A DNA stretch of 64,000 nt from Actinacidiphila cocklensis (lineage in GTDB: Bacteria > Actinomycetota > Actinomycetes > Streptomycetales > Streptomycetaceae). The notes below the pieces were generated by a model, which saw only the letters and a program-made list of their open reading frames with translations, made no database searches and was not told where the DNA came from. Below, in pieces: positions 12,480 to 49,718 of this stretch. Numbering within the stretch: the first letter of the stretch is position 1; every line of letters begins with the position of its first letter. The stretch spans positions 1 to 64,000 of the forward strand of contig NZ_CAJSLV010000060.1 in the NCBI RefSeq assembly GCF_907177275.1. The letters run 5' to 3'. The position numbers and the translations under genes were made by a program.

Positions 12480-12618
12480 TTCGCGAGCATCCTCGCAGCC
12501 CGCCGAAGCGGCTCACGGGCTGCCTTCCCTGCATCGGACGCCCAACTGCCACCGCGCACCGCCCACCCCGGACCCAGCGCTGCGACCAGCACGGATGCAA
12601 TACCCGGCACCTCCAGGG
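12480..12618 (-). mobile_element. Degenerate left end of the 1.25-kb IS family
   Basis: Read on the minus strand, this stretch follows the first ~140 bases of the IS at 48463: the end GGTGCCGGGTATTGCATCC, then TCCGATGCAGGGAAGGC and GCTGCGAGGATGCTCG, with scattered substitutions. The transposase frame is lost just after its start codon. The remnant lies directly downstream of the third GH26-like gene and marks the boundary of the intact locus. Confidence 0.75.
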
Positions 12619-12737
12619 CCCCTGCCATCGTTCGGTACGGTCGCAGACGGCCTGGACAACGCGATGACGGAGTCGTGCGCGGGTTCGGCCGGGCGACGGC
12701 TTCTTCGCTGCGCCCGGCGCCTTGGCGGCGAGCGTGC

Positions 12738-14027: not shown

Positions 14028-14414
14028 TGCGTCATCCCCTCTCGTGAGGACGGTCCTGGAGTCGGTTCCGCGATGCCGCAGCCCGGGACCCTCCACCGAC
14101 AGCACAACCTGGCGTCCGTCTGCCCCCGCGCGAGCGGAAGATTCACGCCGGCCGGGGCCTCCTCCTTCCGACGTGACAGCAGTCGGAGCCACGGACCCAG
14201 CCGATTTCCGTTCCGTGGCAGCGCCGGCCGGCTGACGAGTGCTCCAGGGAGAACGCAGAGGACGCGGGAATGCCGGGTGTGGGGGTCACGGTGATCCGGA
14301 GGCCGTGTACTGACCGTCGGCGGAGACGGGGGCGGCAAGCCTGTCATCATCGAGGCCTCACGGCGGCGCACCCCGAGCCGGCACTGCTCAGCGGCCGCCC
14401 GGAAGGAAGAGCGG
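14028..14414. other. Divergent intergenic region
   Basis: 387 bp between the AI-2E-type gene and the spermidine-synthase-like gene. No credible gene, repeat or RNA is visible. It presumably holds both promoters; the only clear signal is AGGAAGAG just before the ATG at 14415. Confidence 0.5.
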
Positions 14415-18857: not shown

Positions 18858-18887
18858 CGGTGCCGTTTGAAAGACCCTTGCGCATCC

Positions 18888-19505
18888 TGCGCATGCCGAT
18901 AACCTCATCCACCCTGGTCAGAGCCTACTTGCCGTGGCCTCCGTGCTGTCGGATGCCGAGGCTGACGCAGCGCTCTGGCGGGGATGACGATCACCCCGGC
19001 ATGATGATTACTTGTGCTCTTGAAACTCGCCTACCTGGGCGTGTCGAACATGTTCGCGATGCTGCGCCTGCTGCCGATGAGTGACCGGGACAAGGACGTC
19101 GAAATCCTGGCGCTACGCCATCAGATCTCTGTGCTGGAGCGGCAGCTGACCGGGCAGCGGGCGCGGTTCACAGCAATTGATCGGGCGTGCCTGGCCGCGC
19201 TGCTGCACCACCTCCCGAAGGACGCGTTGCGCCGTATGCGGCTGCTGGTGCGGCCGGACACGGTCCTGCGCTGGCACCGGGACCTGGTCGCCCGCCAGCA
19301 CGCCGCGCGATCCCGGCCCCACCGCGGAGGCCGACCACGCACCGTCTGCTCCATCCGAGGCCTGGTACTGCGCCTGGCCCGTGAGAACCCCAACTGGGGC
19401 TACCGGCGCGTGCACGGCGAACTGCTGGTACTCGGAGTGAAGGTAGCCGCCTCCACGGTCTGGGAAATCCTGAAGGACGCCGGTATCCCACCGGCACCGG
19501 AACGG
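18888..19505 (+). mobile_element. Truncated IS, left end plus 5' half of transposase
   Basis: The left end around 18888 (GCATGCCGATAACCTCATCC) resembles the ends of the 1.25-kb IS family. It is followed by the transposase start at 19014. The element is cut at 19505 by the inverted-end element at 19506-19703, and its right half is not present beyond that. Confidence 0.65.
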
Positions 19506-19520
19506 TGTGGGTGCCGATAA
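19014..19520 (+). pseudogene. rve-core transposase, C-terminal half missing
   Basis: 168 residues remain: RDKDVEILALRHQISVLERQ, RPDTVLRWHRDLVARQ, ENPNWGYRRVHGELLVLG and VKAVASTVWE-like helix-turn-helix sequence, ending EILKDAGIPPAPER. The match to the transposase at 48588 stops there and the reading frame terminates five codons later inside the MITE-like end. The whole DDE catalytic core is gone. Confidence 0.85.
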
Positions 19521-19703
19521 TTCGTCCGCGCAGGTCAGCAGCCTGCGGGCTGGTGACCTGGGTGCTGAGCGGATGGCATTGTTGAACGTGTTCAGCTATC
19601 AAGTTATGGATTGCTGAACGCGTTCCATTCTTGCCCTCTTTGTGCACCCATGCAGGTCGTTCGTAGGCTGCTGATCTGCGCGGATGAGTTATTGGCACTC
19701 GCA
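19506..19703. repeat. MITE-like element (copy 2)
   Basis: 198 bp with 38-base inverted ends: TGTGGGTGCCGATAATTCG followed by TCCGCGCAGGTCAGCAGCC on the left, and on the minus strand TGCGAGTGCCAATAACTCA then TCCGCGCAGATCAGCAGCC on the right. The interior has a second inverted repeat, GAACGTGTTCAGC against GCTGAACGCGTTC. It encodes nothing. It separates two broken transposases of unrelated families. Its ends are related to those of the 1.25-kb IS, which could mobilise it in trans. Confidence 0.7.
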
Positions 19704-21376: not shown

Positions 21377-22579
21377 TGTGCCGTTCGGAAACTCATCGCT
21401 GCTGGTGGTAGGCGTCTGGCGCGGGCGTCTGGCGCGGCATCACGGTTTGCTGGAACCTTGTCCGGGTGATCGTCTCGCTGGTGTACCGGGTGGTACGCAA
21501 GCTCCTCGCGGTCCCGGCGGTGCTGATGCGCCGGGACATGGCCAAGGAGGCGGAATTGCTGGTGTTGCGCCACGAGAACTCGGTGCTGCGCAGGCAGCTC
21601 ACCGGTCCTGTGCGGTACAAGCCGGCGGATCGGCTATGGCTCGCGGCACTGTCCTCGCTGATCCCGCGGCGTCGATGGGCGCAGGTGTTCCCGGTGACGC
21701 CCGCGACGCTGTTGGCGTGGCACCGCAGACTGATCACCCGGAAGTGGGACTACAGCAAGCGCCGGACCAGGTCCGGCAGACCCTCGACGGCGGGAGCGGT
21801 AAAGGCTCTGGTGGTGCGGCTGGCCAAGGAGAATCCGAGGTGGGGCTGCCGTCGGATCCAGGGCGAACTGGCTCGGCTCGGGCATCCGGTCGGCTCGACG
21901 ACGGTCTGGGAGATCCTGACGGCCGCCGGCATCGATCCGGCCCCCAGACGCAGCGGGCCGACGTGGCGTGAGTTCCTGACCGCGCAGGCCGAAGGCATCG
22001 TCGCCTGCGACTTCCTACACATCGACCTGGTCGACCTGCGCCGGGTGTACGCGCTGGTGTTCCTCGAGCACGGGACACGCAGGCTGCACATCGCCGGCGT
22101 AACCGCTCACCCCACGGGGGCGTGGACGACACAGCAGGCGAGAAATCCTGCCGTCGAATCGGGTGTGCGGGTCGAGTCGCTGCGCTTCCTGCTCCGCGAC
22201 CGGGACGCGAAATACACCAAGCCCTTTGACCGGTCTTCGCAGCCGACAGCATCGAGGTCATGCAGACCGCGCCTCGGGCTCCCCGGATGAACGCGCACTG
22301 CGAACGGGTCATCGGCACCCTGCGCCGCGAGGCCCTCGACCACCTGCTGATAGGGAACGAGGCCCACGCCCGGCAAGTCCTCAATACCTACGCCCGGCAC
22401 TACAACGGTCATCGCCCACACCAGGCCAGGGGCCAGCTCCCTCCGCTCGCCCGAGAACACACAGCGCCCATGACCGCTCCAACCCCTCACCGGCTCCTAC
22501 GCACCCGAGTGCTCGGCGGCGTGATCAACGAGTACAGATACGCGGCCTGACCAGCAGCGACGAGTTTCCGAACGGCACA
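21377..22579 (+). mobile_element. Insertion sequence of about 1203 bp, rve-type transposase
   Basis: Ends are TGTGCCGTTCGGAAACTC at 21377 and its inverted copy finishing at 22579; the match continues inward (ATCGCTGCTGGT against GTCGCTGCTGGT) to about 30 bases with one mismatch. One transposase gene fills the element. No direct target duplication is visible. It belongs to the same group as the element at 16283-17465 by transposase sequence and end pattern. Confidence 0.88.
21466..22550 (+). pseudogene. rve-core transposase with one frameshift
   Basis: The first 250 residues are good: AELLVLRHENSVLRRQLTG, KENPRWGCRRIQGELARLG, EGIVACDFLHIDLVDL (first Asp), then LLRDRDAKYTKPFD. Near 22235 one base is missing; the next frame resumes with VFAADSIEVMQTAPRAPRM and ends VINEYRYAA. 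A single-base repair would give a normal ~360-residue DDE enzyme, so this copy died recently or carries a sequencing error. Confidence 0.85.
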
Positions 22580-28304: not shown

Positions 28305-29069
28305 TCACAGCCGGCCCGTCAGCCGGGATGCCCCGTCGAGGGCGAAACGCAGGAGGCCGCCGTCGTCGGGGGTGATGCGGCGGGCGGCGCCGTGCAGATA
28401 GAGGCCGCCGACCACGTGCGCCGTCTCGTCGCGGATGGGTACGGCGAGGGCGGCGCGGCCGACAAGGGCCTCCTGGTCCTCGTAGGCGTAGCCGGTCTGC
28501 AGTACGTGGTCCAGTTCGCGGTCGAGGACGCCGTGGTCGCGGATGGTGTGCTCGGTGACGGCCGGCAGGGCCGATGCGGGCCGCAGCCTCGGATGGTGGG
28601 CGAGCAGGAGCTTGCCGAGCGCATTGGCGTGCAGGAAGTGCCGGAGCAGGGCGATGCCGACGGCGTCGTGGTCGGGGTCCTGGTCGACGAAACGGAGCCG
28701 GCCGTCCGCGAACGAGGCGATGTGCAGGCCGAAGCGGGTGTGGCGCCGCAGGTCCTCGGCGACCTTGTGGACGGAGGACGACGGAGCCGATCCGTTGGCG
28801 GCGTACGCCAGTTCGGCGGTGCGACGGCCGAGCGCGAAGCCGGACAGGTCGGGCATCCGCACGAGGTAGCCGTCGGCCACCAGCAGGTTGAGCATCCGGT
28901 ACGCGGTCGCGCTGGGTACCCCCGCGAAGGCGGCGATGTCCCGGGCCGAGGTGCCGGGACCGAGGTGGGCCACGGCCTCCAGCATGCTCAGCGCCTTCTG
29001 CACCGCCCCGGGCTGCTGGCCGCTGAAGCTCGCGTCGTCGTTGCCGGCCCGCCGCCGTATCGGTGTCAC
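28305..29069 (-). CDS. IclR-family transcriptional regulator
   Basis: 254 residues. The winged helix-turn-helix reads AVQKALSMLEAVAHLGPG then ARDIAAFAGVPSATAYRMLN; the effector domain includes FVDQDPDHDAVGIALL, HANALGKLLLAHHP and AALAVPIRDE. IclR proteins sense small aromatic or aliphatic metabolites and usually control adjacent catabolic genes. The GTG at 29069 overlaps the permease stop (GTGA), so the two are translationally coupled. Divergent from them lies the amine-dehydrogenase row. A perfect inverted repeat at 30614-30636 is a candidate target. The natural ligand could be an amine or the aldehyde made from it; this is inference. Confidence 0.88.
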   Translation of the reverse strand: MTPIRRRAGNDDASFSGQQPGAVQKALSMLEAVAHLGPGTSARDIAAFAGVPSATAYRMLNLLVADGYLVRMPDLSGFALGRRTAELAYAANGSAPSSSVHKVAEDLRRHTRFGLHIASFADGRLRFVDQDPDHDAVGIALLRHFLHANALGKLLLAHHPRLRPASALPAVTEHTIRDHGVLDRELDHVLQTGYAYEDQEALVGRAALAVPIRDETAHVVGGLYLHGAARRITPDDGGLLRFALDGASRLTGRL

Positions 29070-30598
29070 CCGGCTCTCTCCTCGCGGCAGTCGCCGGCGG
29101 GGCCGGCGACGATCCGGCGGCGCCCCTGGGCGTCGAGGACGAGCACGCCGGCGCCAGGGAGGATGTCCGCCGTCTCCACCGAGTCGAACGCGCCGATCTG
29201 GGTGAGGCTCGCCGGGCGCACCCGTCGCAGTACCGCATGCCAGAGGGCCCCGGACGAGGCGAGGAGCACCAGCGCGACGGGTGCGGCCCACTCACCGTGC
29301 AGTGCGCCCTCGGCGGCGATGACCGCGAGCAGACCCGCGCCCAGAGCACTGACGACCCCGCCGGCGACCAGCGTGGGGACCGTGTGCTCGCCGATCCTGC
29401 GCAGGAACCGGAGCGAGGCGTACGCCACCAACGTGTAAGCGACCACCAGAGCGGTCTCCACCACGCTGTTGAACATCCCGACGTCGTGCCTGCCGGCCGG
29501 ACCGTACACGCCGGCCCCCACGAGACCGGTGGCCATGAAGACCGCGACGGCGGCATACGGGGTGCGCAGCCGGGCGTGGACCCGGGAGAGGAGGCCGGGC
29601 ACCACGTGCTCCACACCCATCGAGTACAGCAGCCGCGAACCCGCCTGGGCGCAGCCCAGCGTGCAGGCGAGCCACGAACAGGCCATGCCGACGTCGAGGG
29701 CGGGAACCATCCACGGCGGCCCCCCGGACCGGGTTCCGCCGTAGTAGGCGTCTACCACGACCGTGCCGTGCCCGGTCAGGGCGGCGCACGCGGCGAACAC
29801 GAACAGCACCCCGACCACGACCGGCGACACCAGGACGGCTCTGGTCACCGTGGAGAGCGGGCGCTTGGCCTCCGGCCCGAAGAACGCCGCGCTCTCGAAG
29901 CCCGCCATGGACAGCACGGTGAGCATGGCGAGCACGGGCAGCGGGCCAAGCGAGGTCGGGGACACCGGGGCGGCGCCGCCCGGGGAGCCGGCCGGCGTCA
30001 CGATCATCAGGCCGCTGATCAGCACGAGGGAGCAGGTCTCGGTCACCAGGATGGCGCGCGCGGCATAGCGCGCTCCCCGCAGCGAGATCACGGCGACCAC
30101 GAGGGCGAGCACCGCGCAGGTGGCCGTCCGGGCAGGCAGGCCTCCGGTGTGCGGCAACCGCAGGAGCGCGGCGATGCGCAGGACGGTCTCGGCTCCCTCG
30201 GCGAGCCCCGAGAGGAAGATGCCGAGGTATCCGGTGAGCAGCGCCGCACCGGTGGCCAGCGCGGCGCGGGCGCCCAGGCCCTGGCACACGAAGCTGTAGA
30301 GTGATCCGGCCGCCGCCAGCCGCTTGGTGAACTGGCTGATGCAGAAGGCCAGGACCACCACGACCGAGGTGGTGGTGGCGATGGTGGCCACCCCGCCGCC
30401 CCCGGGATGGTGGGTCGCCATCCACAGGGCGATGTACATCATCCCGGTGACCGGGGCGATGGTCGACAGGGACTGGGCCAGCAGGTCGATCGCGGGCAGC
30501 TGACGCCGGCCCAGCGCGCGCAGTGGACTGTAGACAGTGGTGTTGGGCTGGCCGGCGCCGCGTGCGCGGTCGATGGCGGCCCGGAGAGCTGCTGTCAC
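29066..30598 (-). CDS. APC-superfamily amino-acid/amine permease
   Basis: 510 residues with about 12 hydrophobic helices, starting AIDLLAQSLSTIAPVTGMMY and including FCISQFTKRLAAAGSLYSFV (helix 2-3 with a GSLY motif) and SMAGFESAAFFGPEA in helix 6. These are APC features; polyamine, amino-acid and amine uptake systems all belong here. GTG start at 30598. It is coupled to the IclR gene and diverges from the mau-like row. Uptake of an amine or amino acid linked to that pathway is plausible. However, the dehydrogenase is predicted outside the membrane, so the permease might import its product or a co-substrate instead. Confidence 0.87.
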   Translation of the reverse strand: MTAALRAAIDRARGAGQPNTTVYSPLRALGRRQLPAIDLLAQSLSTIAPVTGMMYIALWMATHHPGGGGVATIATTTSVVVVLAFCISQFTKRLAAAGSLYSFVCQGLGARAALATGAALLTGYLGIFLSGLAEGAETVLRIAALLRLPHTGGLPARTATCAVLALVVAVISLRGARYAARAILVTETCSLVLISGLMIVTPAGSPGGAAPVSPTSLGPLPVLAMLTVLSMAGFESAAFFGPEAKRPLSTVTRAVLVSPVVVGVLFVFAACAALTGHGTVVVDAYYGGTRSGGPPWMVPALDVGMACSWLACTLGCAQAGSRLLYSMGVEHVVPGLLSRVHARLRTPYAAVAVFMATGLVGAGVYGPAGRHDVGMFNSVVETALVVAYTLVAYASLRFLRRIGEHTVPTLVAGGVVSALGAGLLAVIAAEGALHGEWAAPVALVLLASSGALWHAVLRRVRPASLTQIGAFDSVETADILPGAGVLVLDAQGRRRIVAGPAGDCREERAG

Positions 30599-30613
30599 CT
30601 CGGTCTTTCCCTT

Positions 30614-30636
30614 CTTCCCGATGCTGTATCGGGAAG
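30614..30636. promoter_or_regulatory. Perfect inverted repeat, candidate IclR operator
   Basis: CTTCCCGAT, five spacer bases, ATCGGGAAG. It lies 16 bases upstream of the permease GTG and within the 345-bp region between the permease and mauE. No T-run follows, so a terminator is less likely than a protein site. The rest of the region (30637-30943) contains no convincing gene. Confidence 0.6.
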
Positions 30637-30943
30637 GGAGCTTAGAACCGCCCGATTACGCGGCCATGACGGCAGGAAACTCAAGGCCGATCCTCAAGTG
30701 GGACCGCATCCGCGCCCGCCGGGCGTCTCGTCGGCGGTAATCGGCCACCATGTCCGACATGCGCCCGCGGCGCGGCCCCCGCGCCCCTCCCGCTTGCCGG
30801 GCCGCCGATTGTTTCGCCGTTGTCTCCGGCCCGTCACGCCGGCTCACCACGATGAACTCGGCGCCGACGGACACGGCGCCGCGTGACGCCGCCCCGCACC
30901 GGGCGCGGCGGCCACGTCAACGCAGCTCAGCAGGACAGGACGG

Positions 30944-31546
30944 GTGGACCGCGTGTTCTCCATGGCATGTTCCCTACTCGCATCCGTCGTGGGCGGCACG
31001 CTGCTCGTCGCCGGGGTGCCCAAACTGCGGGACCGCGAGGGGTTGTTGCGCGTCGTACGCGCTTACCAGGTGCTGCCGGCCGGCGCCGAACGGGTCGTCG
31101 CCCTGCTCCTTCCGTACGCGGAGATCGCGGTCGGCGCCCTGCTCGTCCTGGGCGTCGCCGTCCGGCCGGCCGCCGCGCTCGGCGGCCTGCTGTTCCTCGG
31201 CTTCTGCGCCGGGCTGACGGTCAACCTCCTGCGCGGCCGCCGCGAACTCGACTGCGGCTGCTTCGCGTTCGGCGTCAAGGACGCGGTGCCGCACATCGGC
31301 TGGTTCCACGCGCTGCGCGCGCTCGCCCTCGCCCTGGTAGCGGGGCTGACGGTGGCGACGTACCGGGGACCCGGTCTCGCGGGGCACGCGGTGGCCGTGG
31401 CGCTGGCCGCCCTGCTGCTCGCCATGGTGACCGCCGCTGCCCAGGTACGGCAGGTCGTCCATCCGGGGCGCCGTCCGGTCGACACACATCTGTCCCGCGC
31501 GGCCGGGGCGCTCCGCCAGGCGCCGGCCGGCCCCTCGCGCCGCTGA
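30944..31546 (+). CDS. mauE: MauE-family membrane protein
   Basis: 200 residues with about four to five hydrophobic helices. MauE/DoxX-like features: SVVGGTLLVAGVPKLRD at the start, VRAYQVLPAGAERVVALLLP, and a cysteine pair in RRELDCGCFAFG facing one side of the membrane. In Paracoccus and Methylobacterium MauE acts with MauD in folding and disulfide formation of the amine dehydrogenase small subunit. The GTG at 30944 is preceded by AGGA. It is the first gene of a seven-gene row and stands immediately before mauD, the order E-D-A known from Gram-negative clusters. Confidence 0.85.
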   Translation: MDRVFSMACSLLASVVGGTLLVAGVPKLRDREGLLRVVRAYQVLPAGAERVVALLLPYAEIAVGALLVLGVAVRPAAALGGLLFLGFCAGLTVNLLRGRRELDCGCFAFGVKDAVPHIGWFHALRALALALVAGLTVATYRGPGLAGHAVAVALAALLLAMVTAAAQVRQVVHPGRRPVDTHLSRAAGALRQAPAGPSRR

Positions 31547-31645
31547 GATCCCGCCCCACCTGTACGCCGAGCCCCGCCGAGCCCCGGCGGGCCGTGGCCC
31601 GCGCGTCGCCCGCGTGCGTCCGCCTCCTCCGACGACAAGGACACC

Positions 31646-32260
31646 ATGAACACGCTCCTGCTCACCGCGGTCGCCGTACTCGGGGCGGCCACCGCACTGC
31701 TGTTCCTCATGCTGCTGGCGCTCGCCCGGGAGATCGGGCGGGTGCAGGTCCGCCTCGGCCCGCTCGGCGCCCGGATGATGGACACCGGGCCCAGAGTCGA
31801 CCAGGCCGGTCCCTCCTTCCGCGGCCTCACCGACCAGCTCGACCGCACGGTGGACATCGGCGGCCACCGTGCCAGGCCGCAGCTCCTCGTGTTCACCGCA
31901 CCGTCCTGCTCCACCTGCAAAAGCCTGCTGCCGGGCATCCGCAGCATGGCCAGGGCGGAGAAGGAACTCGACGTCGTGCTGGTGTCCGACGGCACACCCG
32001 AGGAGCACCGGGAGTTCCTCGCGGGCAGCGGCATCGGCGCGGAGCTCGCCTACGTCGACGCCCGGGACGTGGGCATCGCCTACCAGGTGGGCACCACGCC
32101 GTACGCGGTGGTGCTCGACGAACACGGCAAGATCCGCGGCAAGGGCCTGTGCAACCACATGGCGCAGGTCGAGAGCCTGCTCAACGCCCTGGAGACCGGC
32201 ACTCCGTCGCTCCAGCACCTGCACGCACAGGCCAAGGCCCAGGCGGACGCCGCCGCCTGA
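31646..32260 (+). CDS. mauD: MauD-family thioredoxin-like protein
   Basis: 204 residues. An N-terminal membrane anchor (LLLTAVAVLGAATALLFLML) is followed by a thioredoxin fold with the redox motif C88-S-T-C91 in FTAPSCSTCKSLLPG and the cis-proline loop VGTTPYAVVLDE. MauD proteins reduce or isomerise disulfides of the cysteine-rich light chain outside the membrane. It starts about 100 bases after mauE and precedes the light-chain gene. With 14 cysteines in the neighbouring light chain, a dedicated disulfide enzyme makes sense. Confidence 0.88.
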   Translation: MNTLLLTAVAVLGAATALLFLMLLALAREIGRVQVRLGPLGARMMDTGPRVDQAGPSFRGLTDQLDRTVDIGGHRARPQLLVFTAPSCSTCKSLLPGIRSMARAEKELDVVLVSDGTPEEHREFLAGSGIGAELAYVDARDVGIAYQVGTTPYAVVLDEHGKIRGKGLCNHMAQVESLLNALETGTPSLQHLHAQAKAQADAAA

Positions 32261-32368
32261 CGGTCCCGCGGACACCGCCGGGACGACCTCGCCGGACATC
32301 GCCGGCACCCGCGGGGCGACATACCCGGACCCCATCCCCACCCCCTTCCCTCAGATTGGAGCGCTTCG

Positions 32369-33055
32369 GTGGAGCACCAGCAGGAGAGTCATGAGAACCG
32401 GTATCCGGTCGACCAACACACCGTGCAGGAACAGGCCGAGTGGCTGGCAGGCCGCGGCGGCAGCCTCGTCGGGCGCGCGGGCCGCCGCATGTCCGAACGT
32501 GTCTCGCGCCGCTCGGTCATCGGGCGGCTCGGCCGCTGGACGGTCGGCGCCACCGGCGTCGCCGTGATCGGCGCGCTACCGGTCACCCGTAGCACCGAGG
32601 CCGTCGCCGCCACGCCGAAGGCCGGCGGGGACCACGAGCCGGCGGCCCTCACCTACAAGGGCAAGGACCCCGCCGAGTGCGAGTACTGGCGCTGGTGCAA
32701 CATGGACGGCGCCGCCTGCGCCGCCTGCGACGGCGGAGGTGTGACGACCTGCGCCCCGGGCAGCAAGCCGGGCGCCGAGTTCTGGGTCGGCTGCTGCACC
32801 AACCCGAAGGACGGCAAGACCTACCTGATCGCGTACTACGACTGCTGCGGCGCCCCCGGCTGCACCAACGCCTTCTGCGGTGACCCCGACGTCCAGGCCC
32901 GGATGTACAACCCTGCGGCCGGCAGCTACGACCAGGAGATCATCTGGTGCGTCTCCGACGAGTCGCAGTCCTACACCTGCACGCTGGCGCCGATCATCGG
33001 CGAGGACTGCCAGGTACGTCCCGCGGACCGTCCGAAGGTGGGTGCCGGCTCGTGA
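32369..33055 (+). CDS. mauA: TTQ amine dehydrogenase light chain (methylamine/aralkylamine type)
   Basis: 228 residues. A twin-arginine signal (SRRSVIGRL, residues 46-54, then a hydrophobic run) predicts Tat export of a folded protein. The mature domain aligns with methylamine dehydrogenase beta subunit: W107 in CEYWRWCNMDG and W193 in EIIWCVS correspond to the two tryptophans that form tryptophan tryptophylquinone; NPKDGKTYLIAYYDCC and YTCTLAPIIG also match. There are 14 cysteines in the mature part (six disulfides are usual). The enzyme oxidises a primary amine to aldehyde and ammonia. The substrate may be methylamine, an aralkylamine or another amine. ATG at 32369. Confidence 0.93.
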   Translation: MEHQQESHENRYPVDQHTVQEQAEWLAGRGGSLVGRAGRRMSERVSRRSVIGRLGRWTVGATGVAVIGALPVTRSTEAVAATPKAGGDHEPAALTYKGKDPAECEYWRWCNMDGAACAACDGGGVTTCAPGSKPGAEFWVGCCTNPKDGKTYLIAYYDCCGAPGCTNAFCGDPDVQARMYNPAAGSYDQEIIWCVSDESQSYTCTLAPIIGEDCQVRPADRPKVGAGS

Positions 33056-34389
33056 ACCCGACCTCACGCACCCGACTGCGCGCTCTCCGCGTCGCTGCCC
33101 CGCCGCTCGCGCTGGCCCTCGCGCTGACCGCCTGCACCTCCTCCTCCCACGACGGCGACGCGACGAAGAAGACCGCGCCGCCCGAAGGCGTCGTCAGCTA
33201 CCAGCCCCAGGCCTGGTCGCCCGCCGACTCCACCACCGCTCTCGGCAGCAAGGACGAGACGATCCCGTCGGTCATCCCCGAGAAGCTCCACGTCGGCGCG
33301 ATCACCCCGATCACCAAGAACGACCTGGTCACCCTGCCGGGCGGCTTCGGCAGCCTGGAGGACGGACTCCAGGTCCTCGACCCGACCACCGGCGCGACGC
33401 ATTCCCGGATCGTTGTCGGCCCGGGCATCTGGGAACCGGTCGTGCACGCTTTCATCGGCGCCAAGCCCTCCGACCCCGCGGTGCTCGCCGGCGAGGTGTG
33501 GCGGCCCCGCGGCTCCCGCGGCAAGGCCGACTTCACGGTGAGCACCTACGCGGGCGACCTCCTCAAGCCGGACGAGATCAAGCTCCCCGACTACGCCCGC
33601 CTGCACTCCCGTACGGGCTCCCACGCCGTCACCTCCGACGGCCGGTACTTCGTCTCCTGGGACGACGGCCTCTACGGCCTGCGCGTGATCGACCTGAAGG
33701 AGCACAAGGAGAGCGGCGCCCTCGCCCTGCGCGGCTGCGGTCCCTTCACCTGGACCGTCGGACACGACGTGTACAGCGTGTGCCAGGACACCCGGGAACT
33801 CGTCAGGATCAGCATCGACGCGCAGGGCAGGCCCAAGGTGGCGGGCCGCGCGAAGGTGCTTCCCGCCGACTTCACCGGCGCCCGCACCGTCGGCTGGGCC
33901 GCGGACGCCAAGCAGGGCCTGCTGATCGACGCGGGCGGTGACGTCTACCTGCCGGACTTCTCGCACGGCCTGCCCTCCGCCCCGCTGAAACCGGTCGGCA
34001 ACGCGGGCCGCGCCGAGGGACGCTTCGCCGACAGCGTGATCAACTCCACGGCCGGCAGCGTCGCCGTCGCCTACACCGACTCCGCCGCCAATCCCGACTC
34101 GGCGCAGGCCGGCGACAAGTCCGAGGTCGTCCTGTACGCTGCCGCCGCCTTCCGCTCCATCACCGTCCTGCCGCTGAAGAAGCTCGGTGTGACCGGCATC
34201 GCGGCGATCGCCTACGGCTATGACGGCAAGACGCTGTACGTCGTCGGCGCGGGCGCCGAGAAGGAGGGCCGGCCCACCCAGAAGGTCGTCGGGGTCGACG
34301 CCGCGACCGGCCGTGTCGTGTCGTCGAAGACGATCCAGGGGGCTCTCGGCGACATCGGCGGCCTGATCACCCCGGAGGCGATCGGATGA
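33052..34389 (+). CDS. mauB: Amine dehydrogenase heavy chain, lipoprotein
   Basis: 445 residues, GTG start overlapping the mauA stop (GTGA). A signal peptide with lipobox (ALTAC, about residue 28) predicts lipid attachment outside the membrane, unlike the soluble periplasmic Gram-negative heavy chain. The body has repeated beta-propeller motifs (GGFGSLEDGLQVLDP, HAVTSDGRYFVSWDDG, VIDLKEHKESGALAL, IAYGYDGKTLYVVG), matching the seven-bladed propeller of MauB/AauB. It lies directly after the light-chain gene and overlaps the multicopper oxidase gene, so subunits should be made together. Confidence 0.85.
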   Translation: MNPTSRTRLRALRVAAPPLALALALTACTSSSHDGDATKKTAPPEGVVSYQPQAWSPADSTTALGSKDETIPSVIPEKLHVGAITPITKNDLVTLPGGFGSLEDGLQVLDPTTGATHSRIVVGPGIWEPVVHAFIGAKPSDPAVLAGEVWRPRGSRGKADFTVSTYAGDLLKPDEIKLPDYARLHSRTGSHAVTSDGRYFVSWDDGLYGLRVIDLKEHKESGALALRGCGPFTWTVGHDVYSVCQDTRELVRISIDAQGRPKVAGRAKVLPADFTGARTVGWAADAKQGLLIDAGGDVYLPDFSHGLPSAPLKPVGNAGRAEGRFADSVINSTAGSVAVAYTDSAANPDSAQAGDKSEVVLYAAAAFRSITVLPLKKLGVTGIAAIAYGYDGKTLYVVGAGAEKEGRPTQKVVGVDAATGRVVSSKTIQGALGDIGGLITPEAIG

Positions 34390-36005
34390 GCGGCCCGCTG
34401 CCCGGCGAACAGCCCTTCGGCCGCCGCGAGGTGCTGCGGCTGGGCGCTCTCGCGGCGGGCACGGCCGGGCTCGGCGGCCTGGGGCTGCTCGCCGCGTGCA
34501 GCGGCGGTACGCACCAGGCGGCCCGGCGGTTCATCCTGCCCACCGACCCCGAGGTGCGCCGGGCCGAGGCCGCCCGCCACCGCAGCGGCCGCACAGCGTC
34601 CTTCGCCCTCACCGCCGGCGCCGCCACCGTCGACCTGGGCGGCCGGCGCGCCCACACCTGGACGTACGGGGGCGAGGCGGTCGCCCCCGAACTCCGGGTC
34701 GGCAAGGGCGACCGGGTCCGCGCCGCCGTCACCAACCGTCTGACGGAGCAGACCACCCTGCACTGGCACGGCATCCGCATCCGCAACGACATGGACGGCA
34801 ACGCCCCCGTCACTCAGGCGGCGATCGCGGCGGGGGACGGCCGGTTCACGTACGACTTCACCGTGCCGGACCCGGGCACCTACTGGTACCACTCGCACAG
34901 CGGACTCCAGGCCGACCGGGGCCTGTTCGGCGCCCTCGTCGTGGAGGACCCCGACGACCGCAGTGGCGCCGACGCCGACGCGGTCCTCGTCCTCGACGAC
35001 TGGCTGGACGGGCTGGGCACCACTCCGGACGCGGTCCTCGCCGCCCTCAACCCGGCGCTCGGGGGAGGCGGCACGGCGGGGATGGGGGGCATGGCGGGCA
35101 TGGACCACTCCGGTTCCCCGTCCGCCTCGACCACCGGCGCGGGCACGGGCGGCGGCACCCCGGAGCAGCGGACCGCCGCCCGCCTGGTCGGCCAGGGGGA
35201 AGGCCGTTCGAAGGTGCTGGGCGGCATGACCCAGCACATCGCCTACCCGCTGCACCTGATCAACGGCCGCCCGCCGAACGACCCCAGGCCCATCCGGTGC
35301 AAGCCGGGCACCCGGTTGCGGCTGCGGATTGTCAACGCCGGCGCCGAGACCCCGTACCGTTTCGCCGTCGCCGGCCACGAGCTGACCGTCGTCGCCGTCG
35401 ACGGGTACGACACGCAGCCGCAGAAGGCCGACGCCGTCCTGCTCGGCATGGCACAGCGCGTGGACGTCCTCGTCACCGTCCGCTCCGGAGCGTGGCCCGT
35501 CGTCGCCCGCGCCGAGGGCCGCCCGGGACACGCCGCCACCGTCCTGCGCACCACCGACGCCGCCCCGCAGCGGAAGCTGCCGGCCGACGTCCCGGAGCTC
35601 GACGGCCGCCTCGTGCTGGAGAGCGCGCTGCGCCCCGCCGCCTCCGTACGCCTGGACAAGCGGGCCCCGGACCGCTCCTACGAGGTCGAACTCCTCCGGG
35701 CCGAGGGCCGCTACCAGTGGGGCATCGCCGGCCGGGACGCGGGCGGCCTCGTCATGAAGACCGGCGAGCGCGTCCGCATCACCATGCGCAACACCTCCGG
35801 CATGTGGCACCCCATGCACACCCACGGCCACACCTTCGCGGTGCCCGCCTACGGCGGACTGCGTCGCGACACCGTCAACGTCCTGCCCGGTACCTCGCTC
35901 GCCGTCGAGTTCGACGCCGACAACCCCGGCGAGTGGATGTTCCACTGCCACAACGCCTACCACTTCGAAGCCGGCATGGCCGCGGACCTGCACTACATCC
36001 GCTGA
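34386..36005 (+). CDS. Multicopper oxidase, exported
   Basis: 539 residues, ATG overlapping the previous stop (ATGA). The N-terminus has FGRREVLRLG followed by a hydrophobic run and LLAAC, so it is a Tat-type lipoprotein. All four copper motifs are present: HWHG (126-129), WYHSHSG (167-173), HPMHTHGH (475-482) and HCHNAYHFEAGM (520-531). The axial Met in the last motif suits a type 1 copper site. A His/Met-rich loop (GMGGMAGMDHSG) recalls CueO and may bind copper. It could take electrons from the cupredoxin and reduce oxygen, or help cofactor formation in place of MauG. Neither role is proven. Confidence 0.9.
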   Translation: MSGPLPGEQPFGRREVLRLGALAAGTAGLGGLGLLAACSGGTHQAARRFILPTDPEVRRAEAARHRSGRTASFALTAGAATVDLGGRRAHTWTYGGEAVAPELRVGKGDRVRAAVTNRLTEQTTLHWHGIRIRNDMDGNAPVTQAAIAAGDGRFTYDFTVPDPGTYWYHSHSGLQADRGLFGALVVEDPDDRSGADADAVLVLDDWLDGLGTTPDAVLAALNPALGGGGTAGMGGMAGMDHSGSPSASTTGAGTGGGTPEQRTAARLVGQGEGRSKVLGGMTQHIAYPLHLINGRPPNDPRPIRCKPGTRLRLRIVNAGAETPYRFAVAGHELTVVAVDGYDTQPQKADAVLLGMAQRVDVLVTVRSGAWPVVARAEGRPGHAATVLRTTDAAPQRKLPADVPELDGRLVLESALRPAASVRLDKRAPDRSYEVELLRAEGRYQWGIAGRDAGGLVMKTGERVRITMRNTSGMWHPMHTHGHTFAVPAYGGLRRDTVNVLPGTSLAVEFDADNPGEWMFHCHNAYHFEAGMAADLHYIR

Positions 36006-36016
36006 AAGGAAACACC

Positions 36017-36370
36017 GTGAAAAAGCTGGTCCCCCTCGTGCTCGCCGTCGCCCTGGCACCCGTCCTCACCGCGTGCGGCAGCGACGCCAAGGCCCAGCCG
36101 GTGAACAAGGCACCGGTGATCGTGACGATCAAGAACATGGCCTTCAACCCGTCCCGCATCACCGTCGCCAAGGGCCAGACGGTCGAGTGGCGCTGGGACG
36201 ACGGCGGCATGCCGCACGACGTGTCCGGTGACGGCGCCAACGCGAGCGTGCTGAAGAGCGAACTGCGCACCGCCGGCACCTACCGCCACACCTTCGACAA
36301 GACCGGCACCTTCACCTACCACTGCACCCCGCACCCGGCCATGACCGGCAGCGTCGTCGTCGAGAACTGA
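36017..36370 (+). CDS. Lipoprotein cupredoxin (amicyanin/plastocyanin-like)
   Basis: 117 residues. GTG start, signal peptide and lipobox (VLTAC, Cys20). The blue-copper ligands are H67 (in GMPHDVSG), C103, H106 and M109 (in YHCTPHPAM). The short loop between Cys and Met matches amicyanin, the natural electron acceptor of methylamine dehydrogenase. It begins 11 bases after the multicopper oxidase. The likely path is light chain TTQ to this cupredoxin to an oxidase, all tethered to the outer membrane face. Confidence 0.9.
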   Translation: MKKLVPLVLAVALAPVLTACGSDAKAQPVNKAPVIVTIKNMAFNPSRITVAKGQTVEWRWDDGGMPHDVSGDGANASVLKSELRTAGTYRHTFDKTGTFTYHCTPHPAMTGSVVVEN

Positions 36371-36440
36371 GCCGGCCGCCCCCGGCCGCGGCGCCGCCGC
36401 CCGCCTCGTCCCACCACCACCGCCCGACCCCGGAGGAACC

Positions 36441-37319
36441 ATGACACAGACACTCACCCGGCCCGCCCCGGCTGCCGGGACCCGCGTCCGCGACGCGCTC
36501 GCCCACCCGCCGCTCACCGCGGACGTCCCCGACATCCGCCCGACGCTGCGGCGGGCCGTATCCGGCCGGACCCGCGCCGCCCTGCTGGCCGGCGCCGTCG
36601 CCGCCGGCGCGGCCACCGCTGCGTCGGACCCGGCCGGCGGCACCGCCCTCACCGCCGCCGCGACGGGCGCCGCCGCCCTGACGGCGCTGGCGGCGAACTG
36701 GTCCACCTGCGGCATGTCGGTGGCCGGCGTGGTCGCCGCGCCCAAGCAGCCGGGCCGCAAGGGCGCTTCCACCCCGTGGCGGCGGCTGGGCTGGCACGCT
36801 GTGGGCTCGGTCGCCACCGCCGTCCCCACCGGAGCGCTGCTCGGCCTCCTCGGCGCCCCGGTCACCGCGGCCGTTCCCGTCACCGTCCTGCTCCTCGTCT
36901 GGGCCGCGGCGGCCATCGCCTACGGGCTGCACGAGCTGGGGATGGTGCGGATGCCGACCCCCATGCGGCGCCGCCAACTGCCGCGCCACCTGCGCAAGAC
37001 CACCGAACCCTGGAAGGTCTCCCTGCTCTTCGGAACGATGATCGGCCCCGGCTTCCTGATCTTCATCCGGTCCAGCGCCTACTACCTGCTCGTCCTCGGT
37101 GTCCTGGCATCCGGCTCGCCCGACCTCGGCGCCGCGCTGTTCACGCTGGTGGCGTTGGGCCGCTGCCTGCCCAGCCTGCTGGCCATCCTGCACAGCCGGC
37201 GCGGCGGCTCGATGCCCGGCTTCCTCTCGATGATGTGCGTGATGGACCGCCGGGTCCAGACTGTCACGGGCGCGGGGCTGGCCGCCCTGGCCGCCTTCGC
37301 GAGCCTCGCAACACTCTGA
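36441..37319 (+). CDS. Polytopic membrane protein closing the mau-like row
   Basis: 292 residues with about six hydrophobic segments (for example AALLAGAVAAGAATAA, VTAAVPVTVLLLVWAAAAIA, GTMIGPGFLIFI, AYYLLVLGVLASG) and one notable cysteine motif NWSTCGMSVAG after the second helix. GGAGGAACC precedes the ATG. I do not recognise the family. Position and topology recall MauF, a CcdA/DsbD-like membrane partner of MauE and MauD, but the CcdA proline/cysteine signature is not evident. An assembly or electron-transfer role is a context guess. Confidence 0.75.
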   Translation: MTQTLTRPAPAAGTRVRDALAHPPLTADVPDIRPTLRRAVSGRTRAALLAGAVAAGAATAASDPAGGTALTAAATGAAALTALAANWSTCGMSVAGVVAAPKQPGRKGASTPWRRLGWHAVGSVATAVPTGALLGLLGAPVTAAVPVTVLLLVWAAAAIAYGLHELGMVRMPTPMRRRQLPRHLRKTTEPWKVSLLFGTMIGPGFLIFIRSSAYYLLVLGVLASGSPDLGAALFTLVALGRCLPSLLAILHSRRGGSMPGFLSMMCVMDRRVQTVTGAGLAALAAFASLATL

Positions 37320-37961: not shown

Positions 37962-39300
37962 GGCCCTGTCTCACTTTCGGTGGTGACGGAGCGTGTTGAG
38001 GGTCGTTGACCTTCGTGTGAGGGAAGTCAACGAGCTTGTGCGGACGGTGTTTTCGGGGTTGTCCCCGCTGGTCATCGAGGGGGTGCTGGACGAGGGTGAG
38101 CGGATCGTGGTGCGGGCGCGGACTCCGCAGGATGCCGCGGTCTGTCCGGTGTGCGCGGTGTCGTCGAGGCAGGTGCACGGTTACCAGTTGCGGACGGTGG
38201 CCGATGTGCCGGTCGACGGGCGGCGTGTGGTGGTCCGTGTGCGGGTGCGGCGCCTGGTGTGTCCCACGCGCGGTTGCCGGCAGACCTTCCGCGAGCAACT
38301 GCCCGGGGTGCTGGAGCGATATCAGCGGCGCACGGCCCGTCTGACCTGGCAGGTCAAGGCCGTGGTCAGAGAGTTAGCGGGCCGGGCGGGGTCACGTTTG
38401 TTGGCGGGGCTTGCGGTGGGCCTGTCCCGTCACACGGCTCTGCGTGCCCTGCTGCGCATTCCGCTGCCCACCGGGCGGATGCCCCGTGTGATCGGCGTCG
38501 ACGACTTCGCTCTGCGCCGGCGGCACCGCTACGCCACTGTGGTGATCGACGCTGAGACCCATGAGCGGATCGAGGTGCTGCCCGACCGCACCGCCGACAC
38601 CCTCGAAGCGTGGCTGCGCGGGCATCCGAACGTCGAGGTCGTCTGCCGTGACGGATCGGCCACCTATGCGCAGGCGATCCGCCGCGCTCTGCCCGACGCG
38701 GTGCAGGTCGCTGACCGCTGGCATCTGTGGCACAACCTGCGCGAAGCAGCCCTGAGCGAGGTGAAGACACACAGCACGTGCTGGGCCACCGTCCTGGACG
38801 CACCGATCTACGATGGGCCCCGCGCACAGACCACCCTGGAACGCTGGCCCCAGGTCCACGGTCTCCTCGACCAGGGCGTGGGCCTGCTCGAATGCGCCCG
38901 CCGCCTCCAACTGGCCCTGAACACCGTCAAACGCTACGCCCGAGCCGACCGGCCCGAGCGGATGCTCCGCGTCCCCAAATACCGCGCCGGCCTCGTCAAC
39001 CCCTACCGCGACCACCTGCGCAAACGCCGGGCCGAGGACCCCGCCGTCCCCGTCAGGCACCTCTTCGACGAGATCAAAGCCCTCGGCTTCACCGGCTGCC
39101 TCAACCTCCTGCACAAGTACATCAACCAGGGCCGCGCGGACGCCGAACGCAGCCACATCTCCCCGCGCCGTCTCGCCCGGATGCTCCTCACCAGGCCGGA
39201 CAACCTCAAGGCCGAGCAACACGAATTCCTGGCCAAGCTCACCGCGGCCTGCTCCTCGGATAGCGGCACGCTCCGTCACCACCGAAAGTGAGGCAGGGCC
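37962..39300 (+). mobile_element. ISL3-family element with an internal deletion
   Basis: The ends are near-perfect inverted repeats: GGCCCTGTCTCACTTTCGGT on the left and, on the minus strand, GGCCCTGCCTCACTTTCGGT on the right, extending through GGTGACGGAGCGTG (34 bases, one mismatch). The 1339-bp length and the shortened transposase show loss of a few hundred bases near the right end. The 8-bp direct repeat typical of ISL3 is not found, and what flanks it on the left is not the 5' part of SulP, so rearrangement followed insertion. Confidence 0.88.
37993..39291 (+). pseudogene. ISL3-family transposase lacking its C-terminus
   Basis: 432 residues. Present: the zinc-finger-like N-terminus (CPVCAVSSRQVHGYQ, CPTRGCRQTF), the first Asp (IGVDDFALRRRHRYATVV) and the second Asp (VCRDGSATYAQAIRRALPDA followed by VADRWHLWHNL). 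The frame ends LTAACSSDSG inside the right inverted repeat. Full ISL3 enzymes continue for about 100 more residues with the catalytic Glu (usual pattern SNGRTEG), absent here. The element could be moved only in trans. Confidence 0.85.
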
Positions 39301-43416: not shown

Positions 43417-44945
43417 ATGACAACGAGCGATACAGCGGAACCGGCCAGCTTGGACGATACTTACGAGGACGAAGTGTCGGCCAGGCTCAGGCGCCCGGGT
43501 GGCGTGGTGGTCTCGTGGCTGACCACGACCGACCACAAGATGATCGGCACGCTGTATTTGTGTACGTCGTTCGGCTTCTTCCTGGTCGGAGGGGTCATGG
43601 CGTTGCTGATGCGGGCAGAGCTGGCCAGGCCGGGGACCCAGTTCCTGTCGAACGAGCAGTTCAACCAGGCGTAGACGATGCACGGCACCGTGATGCTGCT
43701 GATGTTCGCGACGCCGCTGTTCGCGGGCTTCACGAACTGGATCATGCCGCTGCAGATCGGTGCGCCCGACGTGGCGTTCCCGCGGCTGAACATGCTCGCC
43801 TACTGGTTCTATCTGTTCGGGTCGCTGATCGCGATCGGCGGCTTCGTCACCCCGCAGGGCGCGGCGGACTTCGGCTGGTTCGCGTACTCGCCGCTGTCCA
43901 GCGCGGTCAACTCGCCGGGCGTGGGCGGGGACATGTGGGTGATGGGTCTGGCGCTGTCCGGCTTCGGCACCATCCTCGGTGCGGTCAACTTCATCACCAC
44001 GATCATCTGCATGCGCGCACCCGGAATGACGATGTTCCGCATGCCGATCTTCGTCTGGAACGTGCTGCTCACCTCGCTTCTGGTTCTCTTCGCCTTTCCG
44101 GTGCTGGCCGGTGCGCTGCTGGCCTTGGAAGCCGACCGGAAGTTCGGGGCGCACGTCTTCGACGCGGCAAACGGTGGCGCGCTGCTGTGGCAGCACCTCT
44201 TCTGGTTCTTCGGGCATCCGGAGGTGTACATCATCGCGCTGCCGTTCTTCGGCATGATCTCCGAGGGTATTCCGGTCTTCGCACGGAAGCCGATGTTCGG
44301 TTACATCGGCCTGGTCGCGGCGACCATCTCCATCGCCGGGCTTTCCATCACGGTGTGGGCGCACCACATGTGCGTCACCGGCGGTGTGCTGCTGCCGTTC
44401 TTCTCGTTCATGACCTTCCTGATCGCGGTGCCGACGGGTGTGAAGTTCTTCAACTGGATCGGCACCATGTGGAAGGGGTCGCTGAGTTTCGAGACCCCGA
44501 TGCTCTGGTCGGTCGGCTTCCTGGTCACCTTCCTGTTCGGTGGCCTGACCGGTGTCATCCTGGCCGCGCCGCCACTGGACTTCCACGTGTCCGACTCGTA
44601 CTTCGTGGTGGCGCGCTTCCACTACACGGTCTTCGGCACCGTGGTGTTCTCGATGTTCGCCGGCTTCCACTTCTGGTGGCCGAAGATGACCGGCAAGATG
44701 CTCGACGAACGGCTCGGGAAGATCACCTTCTGGACGCTCTTCTTCGGCTTCCACGGCACCTTCCTCGTCCAGCACTGGCTGGGCGCCGAGGGCATGCCCC
44801 GCCGGTACGCCGACTACCTGGCCTCCGACGGCTTCACCACGCTGCCACCATCTCCACGATCAGCTCGTTCCTGCTCGGCCTTTCGATCCTTCCCTTCCTC
44901 TACAACGTGTGGAAGACGGGGTCTGAGGAACATCGGCGTCAGATC
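43417..44945 (+). pseudogene. ctaD: Cytochrome c oxidase subunit I, amber codon and 3' truncation
   Basis: The sequence is a recognisable heme-copper oxidase subunit [46 protein letters not shown] (the cross-linked His-Tyr region), [12 protein letters not shown] and [19 protein letters not shown] at 43672-43674 stands where the family has a residue between FNQA and TMHGT. Near 44850 one base is missing; the next frame continues [20 protein letters not shown]. The last ~60 residues are missing and unrelated transposon sequence follows. It probably is a dead extra copy; the essential ctaD must be elsewhere. Confidence 0.88.
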
Positions 44946-45066
44946 GTGCGCTTAGTCCCTGTTGTCGTTCCGAGCTTGAGGGCGGCGTTTTGCCTGGTCG
45001 GGCATAGGGACGGTGACTCGGTGGGAGTTGTGGTCTGTCGGGTTGTCGCTCGCCTGGGAGGCTTGG

Positions 45067-45599
45067 ATGCCGTCAGTTGTCGGACTGCTGGAACAGCACG
45101 AGCTCGCTGCTCGCCGTCGTGTCGACGGGTTGCGGGAGGAAGCCGATCGGATCCAGGCCGAGCTGGCTGCGGCTGAGCTGGAATGGCAGGAATGGACGGT
45201 GCCCGCAGGCGGGTCGACGCTGTCCTGGCCCCCGGCGCCGGCACCACCGGGACGGAGGTCACCTCGATCCCGATGGACGCGGATGCGCCGTCGCCGCCCG
45301 GGGATGGGGTCAAGCCGAGGTCGCAGGTGCCGGTGTGGCGTGAAGGGCTTGCCTGGTCGGTGCTGTCGGTGGACTACCAACGGATCGTGCAGATCCTCGC
45401 GGACCGGTCCCGGCTGCATCAAGGGCACCTGATCTGCCAGGAGATGGCCGCAGTGTTCGGGATGGACGTGGTGCCGGCGCGAGTGGAGGGTTTGCGGTCG
45501 AAGGCGAAACGCCTGGTCGCGCGGGGCTGGCTGACCGAACTCTCGCCGGGCCAGTTCATGCTCGGGAAGGGTGTGGCCGGGCCAGGCGGCGGGTCATGA
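45067..45599 (+). pseudogene. Transposon-associated protein of unknown function, frameshifted
   Basis: From the ATG at 45067: VVGLLEQHELAARRRVDGLR and a helical ADRIQAELAAAELEWQEW, then a base is missing near 45200 and the next frame gives VWREGLAWSVLSVDYQRIVQ, MAAVFGMDVVPARVEGLRSK and RLVARGWLTELSPGQF, a wHTH-like end. I recall similar proteins lying beside transposases in streptomycetes, but their function is unknown. Its end overlaps the convergent IS5-type transposase gene by 44 bases. Confidence 0.6.
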
Positions 45600-48462: not shown

Positions 48463-49718
48463 TGTAGGTGCCGGATATTGCATCCGCGCCGGTCACAGCC
48501 CTGGTTCGGGGTCAGCGGTGCGCGCTGGCAGTTGAGCGTCCGATGCAGGGAAGGCTGCTCGTGGAGCCGCCTCGGCCGGCTGCGAGGATGCTCGACTGTG
48601 CTGTTGCGACTTCCGTATCCCTCACCCTGTCGACCGCCGTCAGCTTCATACGACTGCTGCCGATGAGCAGCCACGAGAAAGACCTGGAGATCCTGGCCCT
48701 ACGCCACCAACTGGTCGTCCTGCAGCGGCAGACAGGCAAACCGCAACTCACCTGGCCCGACCGGGCACTCCTCGCGGCGCTGCTCCACCACCTTCCCCAC
48801 AAGCGGCTGCGTCAGCTCCACCTGATCGTCTCCCCCGACACCGTGCTGCGCTGGCATCGCAAGTTGCTCCGACGCCGCCACGCGAAAGCCTCCCGTCCCA
48901 AGCGCCCGGGCCGGCCCCGCACCGTCCGGTCCATCCGCGTCCTGGTCCTGCGCCTCGTACACGAGAACCCCAGCTGGGGGTACAGACGCGTACACGGCGA
49001 ACTCGCCGCACTCGGAATCAAGGTCGCCGCCTCCACCGTGTGGACCATCCTCAAGGAACACGGCATCCCGCCCGCGCCCGACCGGCAACACACCACCTGG
49101 GCGACCTTCCTCCGCTCCCAGGCCGAAGCCATCCTCGCCGCCGACTTCTTCGAGACCAAGACCCTCACCGGCGCGACCCTGACCGTCCTGACGGTGATCG
49201 AGCACGCGACCCGACGCGTCCGCATCCTCGGCGCCACTACGCAACCCACCGCTGCCTGGGTCACCCAACTCGCCCGCAACCTGGCCATGGACATCCAAGA
49301 CTCCGGAGCAAGGATCAAATACCTGATCCGCGACCGCGACGTACGCTACCCCAGCAGCTTCGACTCCGTACTCGCCGATCAGGGCGTCGAGGCCGTCAAG
49401 ACCGGGGTGAAGATGCCCCGCATGAACGCGATCATGGAACGCTGGATCCGCTCCTGCCGAGCCGAACTACTCGACCGCACCCTCATCTGGGACCAAGCCC
49501 ACCTCATGCACGCCCTACGCGAATACGAACAGTTCCACAACGAACACAGACCCCACCGAGCACTCACCGGCGCCGCACCCCTACGCCCTCTCCCGGAAAC
49601 CCTCGAATCCAACCAACTCGCCCACCTCGACGTCCGCAGACACGATCGCCTCGGCGGCATACTCCACGAGTACCAACATGCCGCATGACCAGCGCGGACG
49701 TGGTTCTCGGCACCTACA
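48463..49718 (+). mobile_element. Intact 1.26-kb IS, rve-type transposase (copy A)
   Basis: Ends: TGTAGGTGCCGGATATTGCA on the left and, on the minus strand, TGTAGGTGCCGAGAACCACG on the right; matches continue with CCGCG and GGTC. Copy B lies inverted at 60231-61483. The bases just outside are shared between copies (CCC before the left end, ACG after the right end), so the true ends may be three bases longer. No direct target repeat is seen. Confidence 0.9.
48588..49688 (+). CDS. rve-core (IS3/IS481-like) transposase, copy A
   Basis: 366 residues from the ATG at 48588; the frame is open upstream to the IS end but the extra part is non-conserved. Seen: KDLEILALRHQLVVLQRQ, SPDTVLRWHRKLL, NPSWGYRRVHGELAALG (helix-turn-helix), then the DDE core with AILAADFFETKTL, KYLIRDRDVRY and the last Glu in MNAIMERWIRSCRAELLDR, ending HRPHRALTG and HEYQHAA. 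No frameshift. This is the probable active source for the several end fragments scattered in the window. Confidence 0.9.
   Translation: MLDCAVATSVSLTLSTAVSFIRLLPMSSHEKDLEILALRHQLVVLQRQTGKPQLTWPDRALLAALLHHLPHKRLRQLHLIVSPDTVLRWHRKLLRRRHAKASRPKRPGRPRTVRSIRVLVLRLVHENPSWGYRRVHGELAALGIKVAASTVWTILKEHGIPPAPDRQHTTWATFLRSQAEAILAADFFETKTLTGATLTVLTVIEHATRRVRILGATTQPTAAWVTQLARNLAMDIQDSGARIKYLIRDRDVRYPSSFDSVLADQGVEAVKTGVKMPRMNAIMERWIRSCRAELLDRTLIWDQAHLMHALREYEQFHNEHRPHRALTGAAPLRPLPETLESNQLAHLDVRRHDRLGGILHEYQHAA

Follow-up and report, generated by a model that had tools for sequence, protein, structure and literature searches.

A divergent gene unit occupies positions 28305-37319 of the window, which is the whole 64,000-nucleotide stretch of Actinacidiphila cocklensis DNA that was analysed. 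Two genes on the minus strand encode an IclR-family regulator and an APC-family permease, and seven genes on the plus strand encode, in order, MauE, MauD, a tryptophan tryptophylquinone (TTQ) light chain, a heavy chain, a multicopper oxidase (MCO), a cupredoxin, and MauF. The locus is a real and conserved TTQ amine dehydrogenase cluster that is free of MauG, and we have not seen this variant described before: literature searches, which were judged by title and the opening of the abstract and had most subscription journals outside their reach, returned no earlier description of such a cluster. A preliminary description had proposed that this actinomycete carries a TTQ dehydrogenase cluster, and the light chain, the fold predicted for the heavy chain, and the mauE, mauD and mauF genes all support that proposal. 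It had listed the MCO and the lipoprotein cupredoxin correctly and had left the heavy chain (33052-34389) and MauF (36441-37319) unnamed.

The TTQ light chain is encoded at 32369-33055 on the plus strand. It matches PF02975 with an E value of 1.2e-32 and the light chains of methylamine dehydrogenase (MADH) and aromatic amine dehydrogenase (AADH) in the PDB with E values down to 8.6e-34, and its score against the NCBIfam MADH equivalog TIGR02659 (128.2 bits) is under the cut-off of 196.85. A light-chain scan of a genome contig collection gave 428 loci, of which the best 80 were kept, and this cut may have left out actinobacterial members that are more distant. These comprise 37 actinobacterial loci, called sister loci here (light-chain identity of 63-76%), and 43 proteobacterial and other loci (37-43%). 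In an alignment with Paracoccus MADH and Alcaligenes AADH, W139 and W193 of the window chain correspond to what we take to be Trp57 and Trp108 of the mature Paracoccus numbering, and D113 and D158 presumably correspond to the active-site residues Asp32 and Asp76. W139, D113 and D158 are identical in all 80 relatives and W193 is kept in 79; only L038, which has an out-of-frame tail, differs. The residues that would form TTQ are thus W139 and W193. The preliminary description had named W107 and W193 as the quinone-forming tryptophans; the second of these was right, and the first was rejected in favour of W139, as the alignment places W107 on the Trp of C-[DE]-Y-W-R, where it is another conserved tryptophan. 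The twin-arginine translocation (Tat) signal reported at the same time is present as R47 R48, and these two arginines are identical in 80 of 80 relatives. TTQ light chains have a framework of six disulfides; the window chain has Cys in 11 of the 12 Paracoccus cysteine columns, and the remaining one, Cys86, aligns with A168, with C165 nearby. The possibility that the chain is a chance or degraded homologue was rejected, given the PF02975 match and the conservation of the TTQ residues.

The heavy-chain gene (33052-34389, plus strand) follows directly, with the bases GTGA common to the light-chain stop and the heavy-chain start. Its product has no match in Pfam or NCBIfam and in a profile comparison resembles AADH heavy chains only weakly (E value of 0.094), and a tblastn search of the window and the 37 sister loci with Paracoccus mauB gave no match. 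An AlphaFold2 model was built from 29 homologues (pLDDT of 85.1), and when this model was searched with Foldseek the first 28 PDB matches were all AADH or MADH heavy chains, with E values from 7.1e-15 and identities of 14-18%. The modelled fold points to a very divergent beta-propeller heavy chain of a TTQ dehydrogenase, and the protein is also a predicted lipoprotein, its start codon and LTAC lipobox having been picked by eye.

Ahead of the light chain, as the preliminary description had stated, lie a gene for a mauE-like membrane protein (30944-31546, plus strand; PF07291, E value of 1.1e-21), whose order is conserved in the sister loci, and a gene for a mauD-like thiol-disulfide protein (31646-32260, plus strand; TIGR02661, E value of 1.9e-48, 164.4 bits, under the equivalog cut-off of 188.6); these two matches, like those of the light chain, the MCO and the cupredoxin, are far from chance. 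The cupredoxin gene (36017-36370, plus strand) encodes a putative amicyanin-like lipoprotein that matches PF00127 and, below the cut-off of 110.2 bits, TIGR02657 (E value of 1.5e-15, 57.4 bits). The last gene (36441-37319, plus strand) encodes a 292-aa membrane protein that is 29% identical over 179 aa (E value of 1e-13) to a protein, likewise of 292 aa, whose gene occupies the mauF position in a mau cluster of Paracoccus. As a tblastn query, Paracoccus mauF matches the window and 34 of the 37 sister loci, the contigs of the remaining three (L036-L038) ending before mauF, and Paracoccus mauC, which encodes amicyanin, matches the window and 35 of the 37. The same searches of the window and the 37 sister loci gave no match for Paracoccus mauG, mauJ, mauM, or mauN. 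In Paracoccus, mauF, mauE, mauD and mauG are essential and mauJ, mauM and mauN are dispensable. In 31 sister loci the cupredoxin gene is succeeded by another, L029 and L031 show a merged match of double length, and the window and L034 have one cupredoxin only. On the minus strand, the regulator (28305-29291; PF01614/PF09339) and the permease (29066-30598; PF00324) are divergent from the plus-strand genes and are both found in 30 of the 37 sister loci; for the regulator, four of the other seven are short contigs.

The gene between the heavy chain and the cupredoxin (34386-36005, plus strand) encodes a laccase-like three-domain MCO (PF07732/PF00394/PF07731) with a leader in which twin arginines and a lipobox were read by eye. 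The heavy-chain stop and the MCO start have the bases ATGA in common, and of the 34 sister loci with the MCO, 32 have an in-frame start codon for it that overlaps the stop of the heavy chain by 4 bases; in the other two the overlap is a single base. The MCO is found in 34 of the 37 sister loci; the contigs of L037 and L038 end before its place and L034, from Planctomonas, is without it. With L037 and L038 set aside as not assessable, 34 of 35 sister loci carry the MCO, or 35 of 36 loci with the window. The residues H126, H128, H169, H171, H475, H478, H480, H520, C521, H522, H526 and M531 are invariant in 23 of 23 aligned MCOs, and these make up the four His-rich copper motifs together with the type 1 (T1) Cys and its axial Met. 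The predicted fold, from a modest model (pLDDT of 72.0), is nearest to the laccases, enzymes that oxidise phenols. The best NCBIfam match is the copper resistance MCO family TIGR01480 (255.5 bits, under the cut-off of 478.95).

The cluster MCOs were compared with their free-standing relatives. Most cluster members are 63-73% identical to the window MCO (those of Corynebacterium and Dietzia 48-56%), and the best match in 395 other Actinomycetota genomes is 51% identical (E <= 1e-60, at most three candidates scored per genome). In a single FastTree run with a midpoint root, the 34 cluster MCOs, that of the window and L120 form one clade with a support of 0.938. L120 is a second cluster-type MCO copy in an R. 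erythropolis genome, 61% identical to that of the window and located ~6 kb from the cluster MCO. Position 233 is His in 33 of 35 cluster MCOs and Met in 12 of 16 free-standing relatives, Asp at 281 and 284 has been lost in the cluster MCOs relative to the same 16, and 34 of 35 cluster MCOs have W370, compared to 2 of 16. We read these changes as a probable substrate switch away from Cu(I) in most cluster MCOs. The cluster-specific clade, the overlapping start codon, the presence in 35 of 36 loci, and the lost Met and Asp features would all fit an MCO that is a dedicated redox partner of the cluster. A simple copper-resistance MCO that is present by mere proximity was rejected on the clade and residue evidence. 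Cognate MCOs were also sought by tblastn in 19 of the 37 sister genomes, in the genome of the window and in three alphaproteobacterial metagenome-assembled genomes (MAGs). Two further MCO genes in the genome of the window (L130 and L131) are apparently of another kind.

The sister loci come from Rhodococcus, Prescottella, Nocardia, Microbacterium, Kineococcus, Planctomonas, Corynebacterium, and Dietzia, and the order mauE, mauD, light chain, heavy chain, MCO, cupredoxin, mauF is kept in most of the 37; in Kineococcus (L033) mauF follows the light chain. In a light-chain tree (a single FastTree run with a midpoint root and L038 left out, whose deepest split has no usable support value) the actinobacterial chains form a group of their own, separate from MADH, AADH, and other chains. 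These chains appear to constitute a third, actinobacterial clade of TTQ enzymes. Of 396 Actinomycetota genomes drawn, with at most 11 candidates scored per genome, only that of the window has PF02975 above the cut-off and one more has a sub-threshold fragment. PF02975 was found in 1 of 35 genomes of the same genus, again that of the window, and in 1 of 329 genomes of the family of Planctomonas, which is Planctomonas itself. This patchy occurrence suggests that the cluster was gained horizontally by the lineage of the window.

The biogenesis of TTQ by MauG is understood in detail. The preliminary description had seen no MauG in view, and a search of the whole genome of the window, a draft of 134 contigs rated 100% complete, gave 0 matches to the MauG family PF03150 with positive results in the control genomes. 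The search was also negative in all 37 actinobacterial sister genomes, whose completeness is not stated, and positive in both Paracoccus cluster genomes. Within Actinomycetota as a whole PF03150 occurs in 6 of 316 genomes. The lack of MauG is therefore the norm of Actinomycetota and is neither peculiar to the window nor surprising. Outside the actinobacteria, PF03150 is present in 9 of 13 and 17 of 29 light-chain genomes (L073 is outside this count), and 3 of the 43 loci fetched contain a relative of mauG (L041, L062, and L081).

The nearest known systems include the Paracoccus mauFBEDACJGMN clusters encoding MADH (L041 and L062), which have in common with the window the TTQ tryptophans, the active-site aspartates, MauE, MauD, MauF, an amicyanin-like cupredoxin and the fold of the heavy chain. 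They differ in that the light chains are 38% and 42% identical to that of the window and fall in a separate clade, and in that the window heavy chain lies downstream of the light chain and is only 14-18% identical in structure alignments. The window and the 37 sister loci also have no relatives of mauG, mauJ, mauM or mauN and have the MCO added. The proteobacterial AADH-like clusters, for which we take the name to be aau, share the TTQ light chain and the E and D genes (in the order B-E-D-A plus a cytochrome c) and mostly have no linked mauG; most encode a small cytochrome c where the actinobacterial clusters encode a cupredoxin. Among the non-actinobacterial TTQ loci, only the two from Paracoccus have a mauF match and only L066, L067 and L082 have an MCO match. 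Beside the light chain of most proteobacterial loci examined there is neither a MauG gene nor an MCO gene; linkage to MauG is thus not a rule throughout the family, and a linked maturase is not obligatory. The free-standing actinobacterial MCOs of the CopA/MmcO kind (MmcO being the name we assume for them) have the same copper motifs, whereas the cluster MCOs form their own clade and most are without the Met-rich loop.

Three alphaproteobacterial MAGs carry a different MCO on the other strand, within ~2 kb downstream of the light chain (L067 ~5261-5737, L082 2820-4217, and L066 ~2044-2463). PF03150 was unmatched in two of these three genomes, and this may be a second, independent MCO association.

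We tentatively propose that the laccase-like MCO builds TTQ in actinobacteria in the place of MauG, which would be a copper-and-oxygen route to a protein-derived quinone with a separate maturase. By analogy with MADH, the light chain would be exported by the Tat route, folded and disulfide bonded with the help of MauE, MauD and MauF, and paired with the beta-propeller heavy chain, which would be anchored as a lipoprotein. Amines would be oxidised at TTQ and the electrons passed, as in MADH, to the amicyanin-like lipoprotein cupredoxin. The MCO may be the dedicated oxidase of the system, most likely carrying out the step for which Paracoccus uses MauG. The reduction of O2 at the MCO copper cluster would drive one-electron oxidations of hydroxylated W139 in the light-chain precursor, and these would yield the W139-W193 bond and the quinone. 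The role of maturase is proposed because the MCO gene overlaps that of the heavy chain, because mauE, mauD and mauF occur without mauG, and because the predicted fold is of the laccase type. Passages of two papers describe MauG as acting on a mono-hydroxylated Trp by remote electron transfer (PMC7876137, PMC6405878), and the T1 copper of a laccase might, by analogy, be capable of a similar remote oxidation. Maturases other than MauG are described in parts of PMC7876137 for enzymes with cysteine tryptophylquinone (CTQ), namely the flavoproteins LodB and GoxB for LodA and GoxA and the flavoprotein QhpG for quinohemoprotein amine dehydrogenase (QHNDH); these differ from the present proposal in being flavoproteins rather than copper proteins. 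Of the 37 loci with mauF (34 sister loci, the window, and two from Paracoccus), all but L034 contain one or the other of mauG and the MCO, which makes 36, and L034 has neither, a pattern that is not repeated independent evidence because it comes from two lineages only.

Several observations weigh against this proposal. Planctomonas (L034) keeps MauE, MauD, the light and heavy chains, the cupredoxin, MauF and the TTQ residues intact, and its genome has no cognate MCO at E <= 1e-8; the single PF07731 match there is to a different type of MCO, CotA-like by eye. Outside the actinobacteria, 40 of 43 TTQ loci have no relative of mauG and have intact TTQ residues, 40 of 43 have no MCO match, and 16 of 42 light-chain genomes have no match to PF03150. 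The premise of the preliminary description that TTQ enzymes depend on MauG is thus broader than these counts and the three linked mauG relatives allow. The absence of MauG taken alone as a pointer to the MCO is weakened both by the MauG-less proteobacterial loci and by the base rate of 6 of 316. Moreover, the MCO of the window itself retains Met at 233, the adjacent cupredoxins suit a role as electron sink equally, and the potential of a laccase may be too low for the oxidation of Trp. Constraint in Planctomonas was compared at otherwise invariant sites, with L037 and L038 left out, Corynebacterium and Dietzia as controls and the cupredoxin comparison, from which over-long matches had been dropped, not used. 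Planctomonas departs at 8 of 105 sites in the light chain, 1 of 88 in MauD, 2 of 57 in MauF and 7 of 84 in the heavy chain, and Corynebacterium, which has the MCO, departs at 7 of 106, 10 of 97, 6 of 61 and 15 of 93, respectively. Given the similar light-chain count in Corynebacterium, the idea that the Planctomonas light chain is decaying for lack of the MCO has no more than a hint of altered constraint in its favour.

An explanation that is nearly as good, and that we regard as a serious possibility, is that the MCO is a terminal electron sink. Electrons would pass from the amine through TTQ, the cupredoxin and the MCO to O2, the system would be an extracellular amine oxidase, and TTQ would form by an unlinked or autocatalytic route. 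The one or two cupredoxins directly after the MCO argue for it, as does the scarcity of a cytochrome alternative: 30 of 37 actinobacterial loci have no CXXCH open reading frame (ORF) of 90-260 aa in bases 6000-15000 (the short contigs L025 and L036-L038 being poorly covered), whereas the small cytochrome c after the L047 light chain has relatives in 39 of 42 other non-actinobacterial loci. Planctomonas has lost the MCO and the second cupredoxin together, which is consistent with such a chain, and what remains could still feed a respiratory chain. However, the window has the MCO without a second cupredoxin, the MCO gene overlaps the heavy-chain gene and not a cupredoxin gene, and electrons dumped on O2 would forgo energy.

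It is unlikely that TTQ forms without any dedicated oxidase, by autocatalysis or through a general extracytoplasmic oxidant. Planctomonas and the 16 PF03150-negative genomes outside the actinobacteria would be explained in this way, but some of them are draft or metagenome-assembled and may be incomplete, and the requirement of the MADH precursor for MauG is established (PMC7876137). A slightly poorer case can be made for an MCO that handles copper: as a cuprous oxidase it would shield the cell or supply the cupredoxin with copper, and it would have no direct part in TTQ formation. TIGR01480 as the best NCBIfam match, even below its cut-off, and free-standing nearest relatives of which several have Met-rich loops agree with copper handling, but the change from Met to His at 233 in most cluster MCOs (the window's excepted) speaks against it. 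The alternative raised in the preliminary description, that MauG is encoded elsewhere, was not borne out: the genome is a draft in 134 contigs, but PF03150 is absent from it and from the 37 sister genomes, and a missed MauG is therefore very unlikely.

The proposed copper route to TTQ can be tested directly, as the conserved cluster without MauG occurs in tractable Rhodococcus species and one natural member is without the MCO. The third TTQ clade also brings with it a heavy chain that Pfam does not recognise.

A few other features were observed. In two sphingomonads a gene matching by Pfam the alpha subunit of the CTQ enzyme quinohemoprotein amine dehydrogenase adjoins the TTQ cluster (L040 11174-13054 and L051 11147-12949). 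ORFs of similar size with two CXXCH motifs are present in L042, L044, L052, and L079, the Pfam assignment applying to L040 and L051 only. In Microbacterium L032 a minus-strand frame of 273 aa (18776-19594) has two CXXCH motifs, and that genome is PF03150-negative. Within the window, a gene for cytochrome oxidase subunit I (43417-45182) has an in-frame stop, apparently loses its frame again near the end, and looks like a pseudogene. Transposase genes are located near the cluster: two that are alike by eye lie in opposite orientation at 48468-49688 and 60261-61478, and further transposase-like genes lie at 16312-17397, 21466-22290, and 37993-39291 (ISL3 family).

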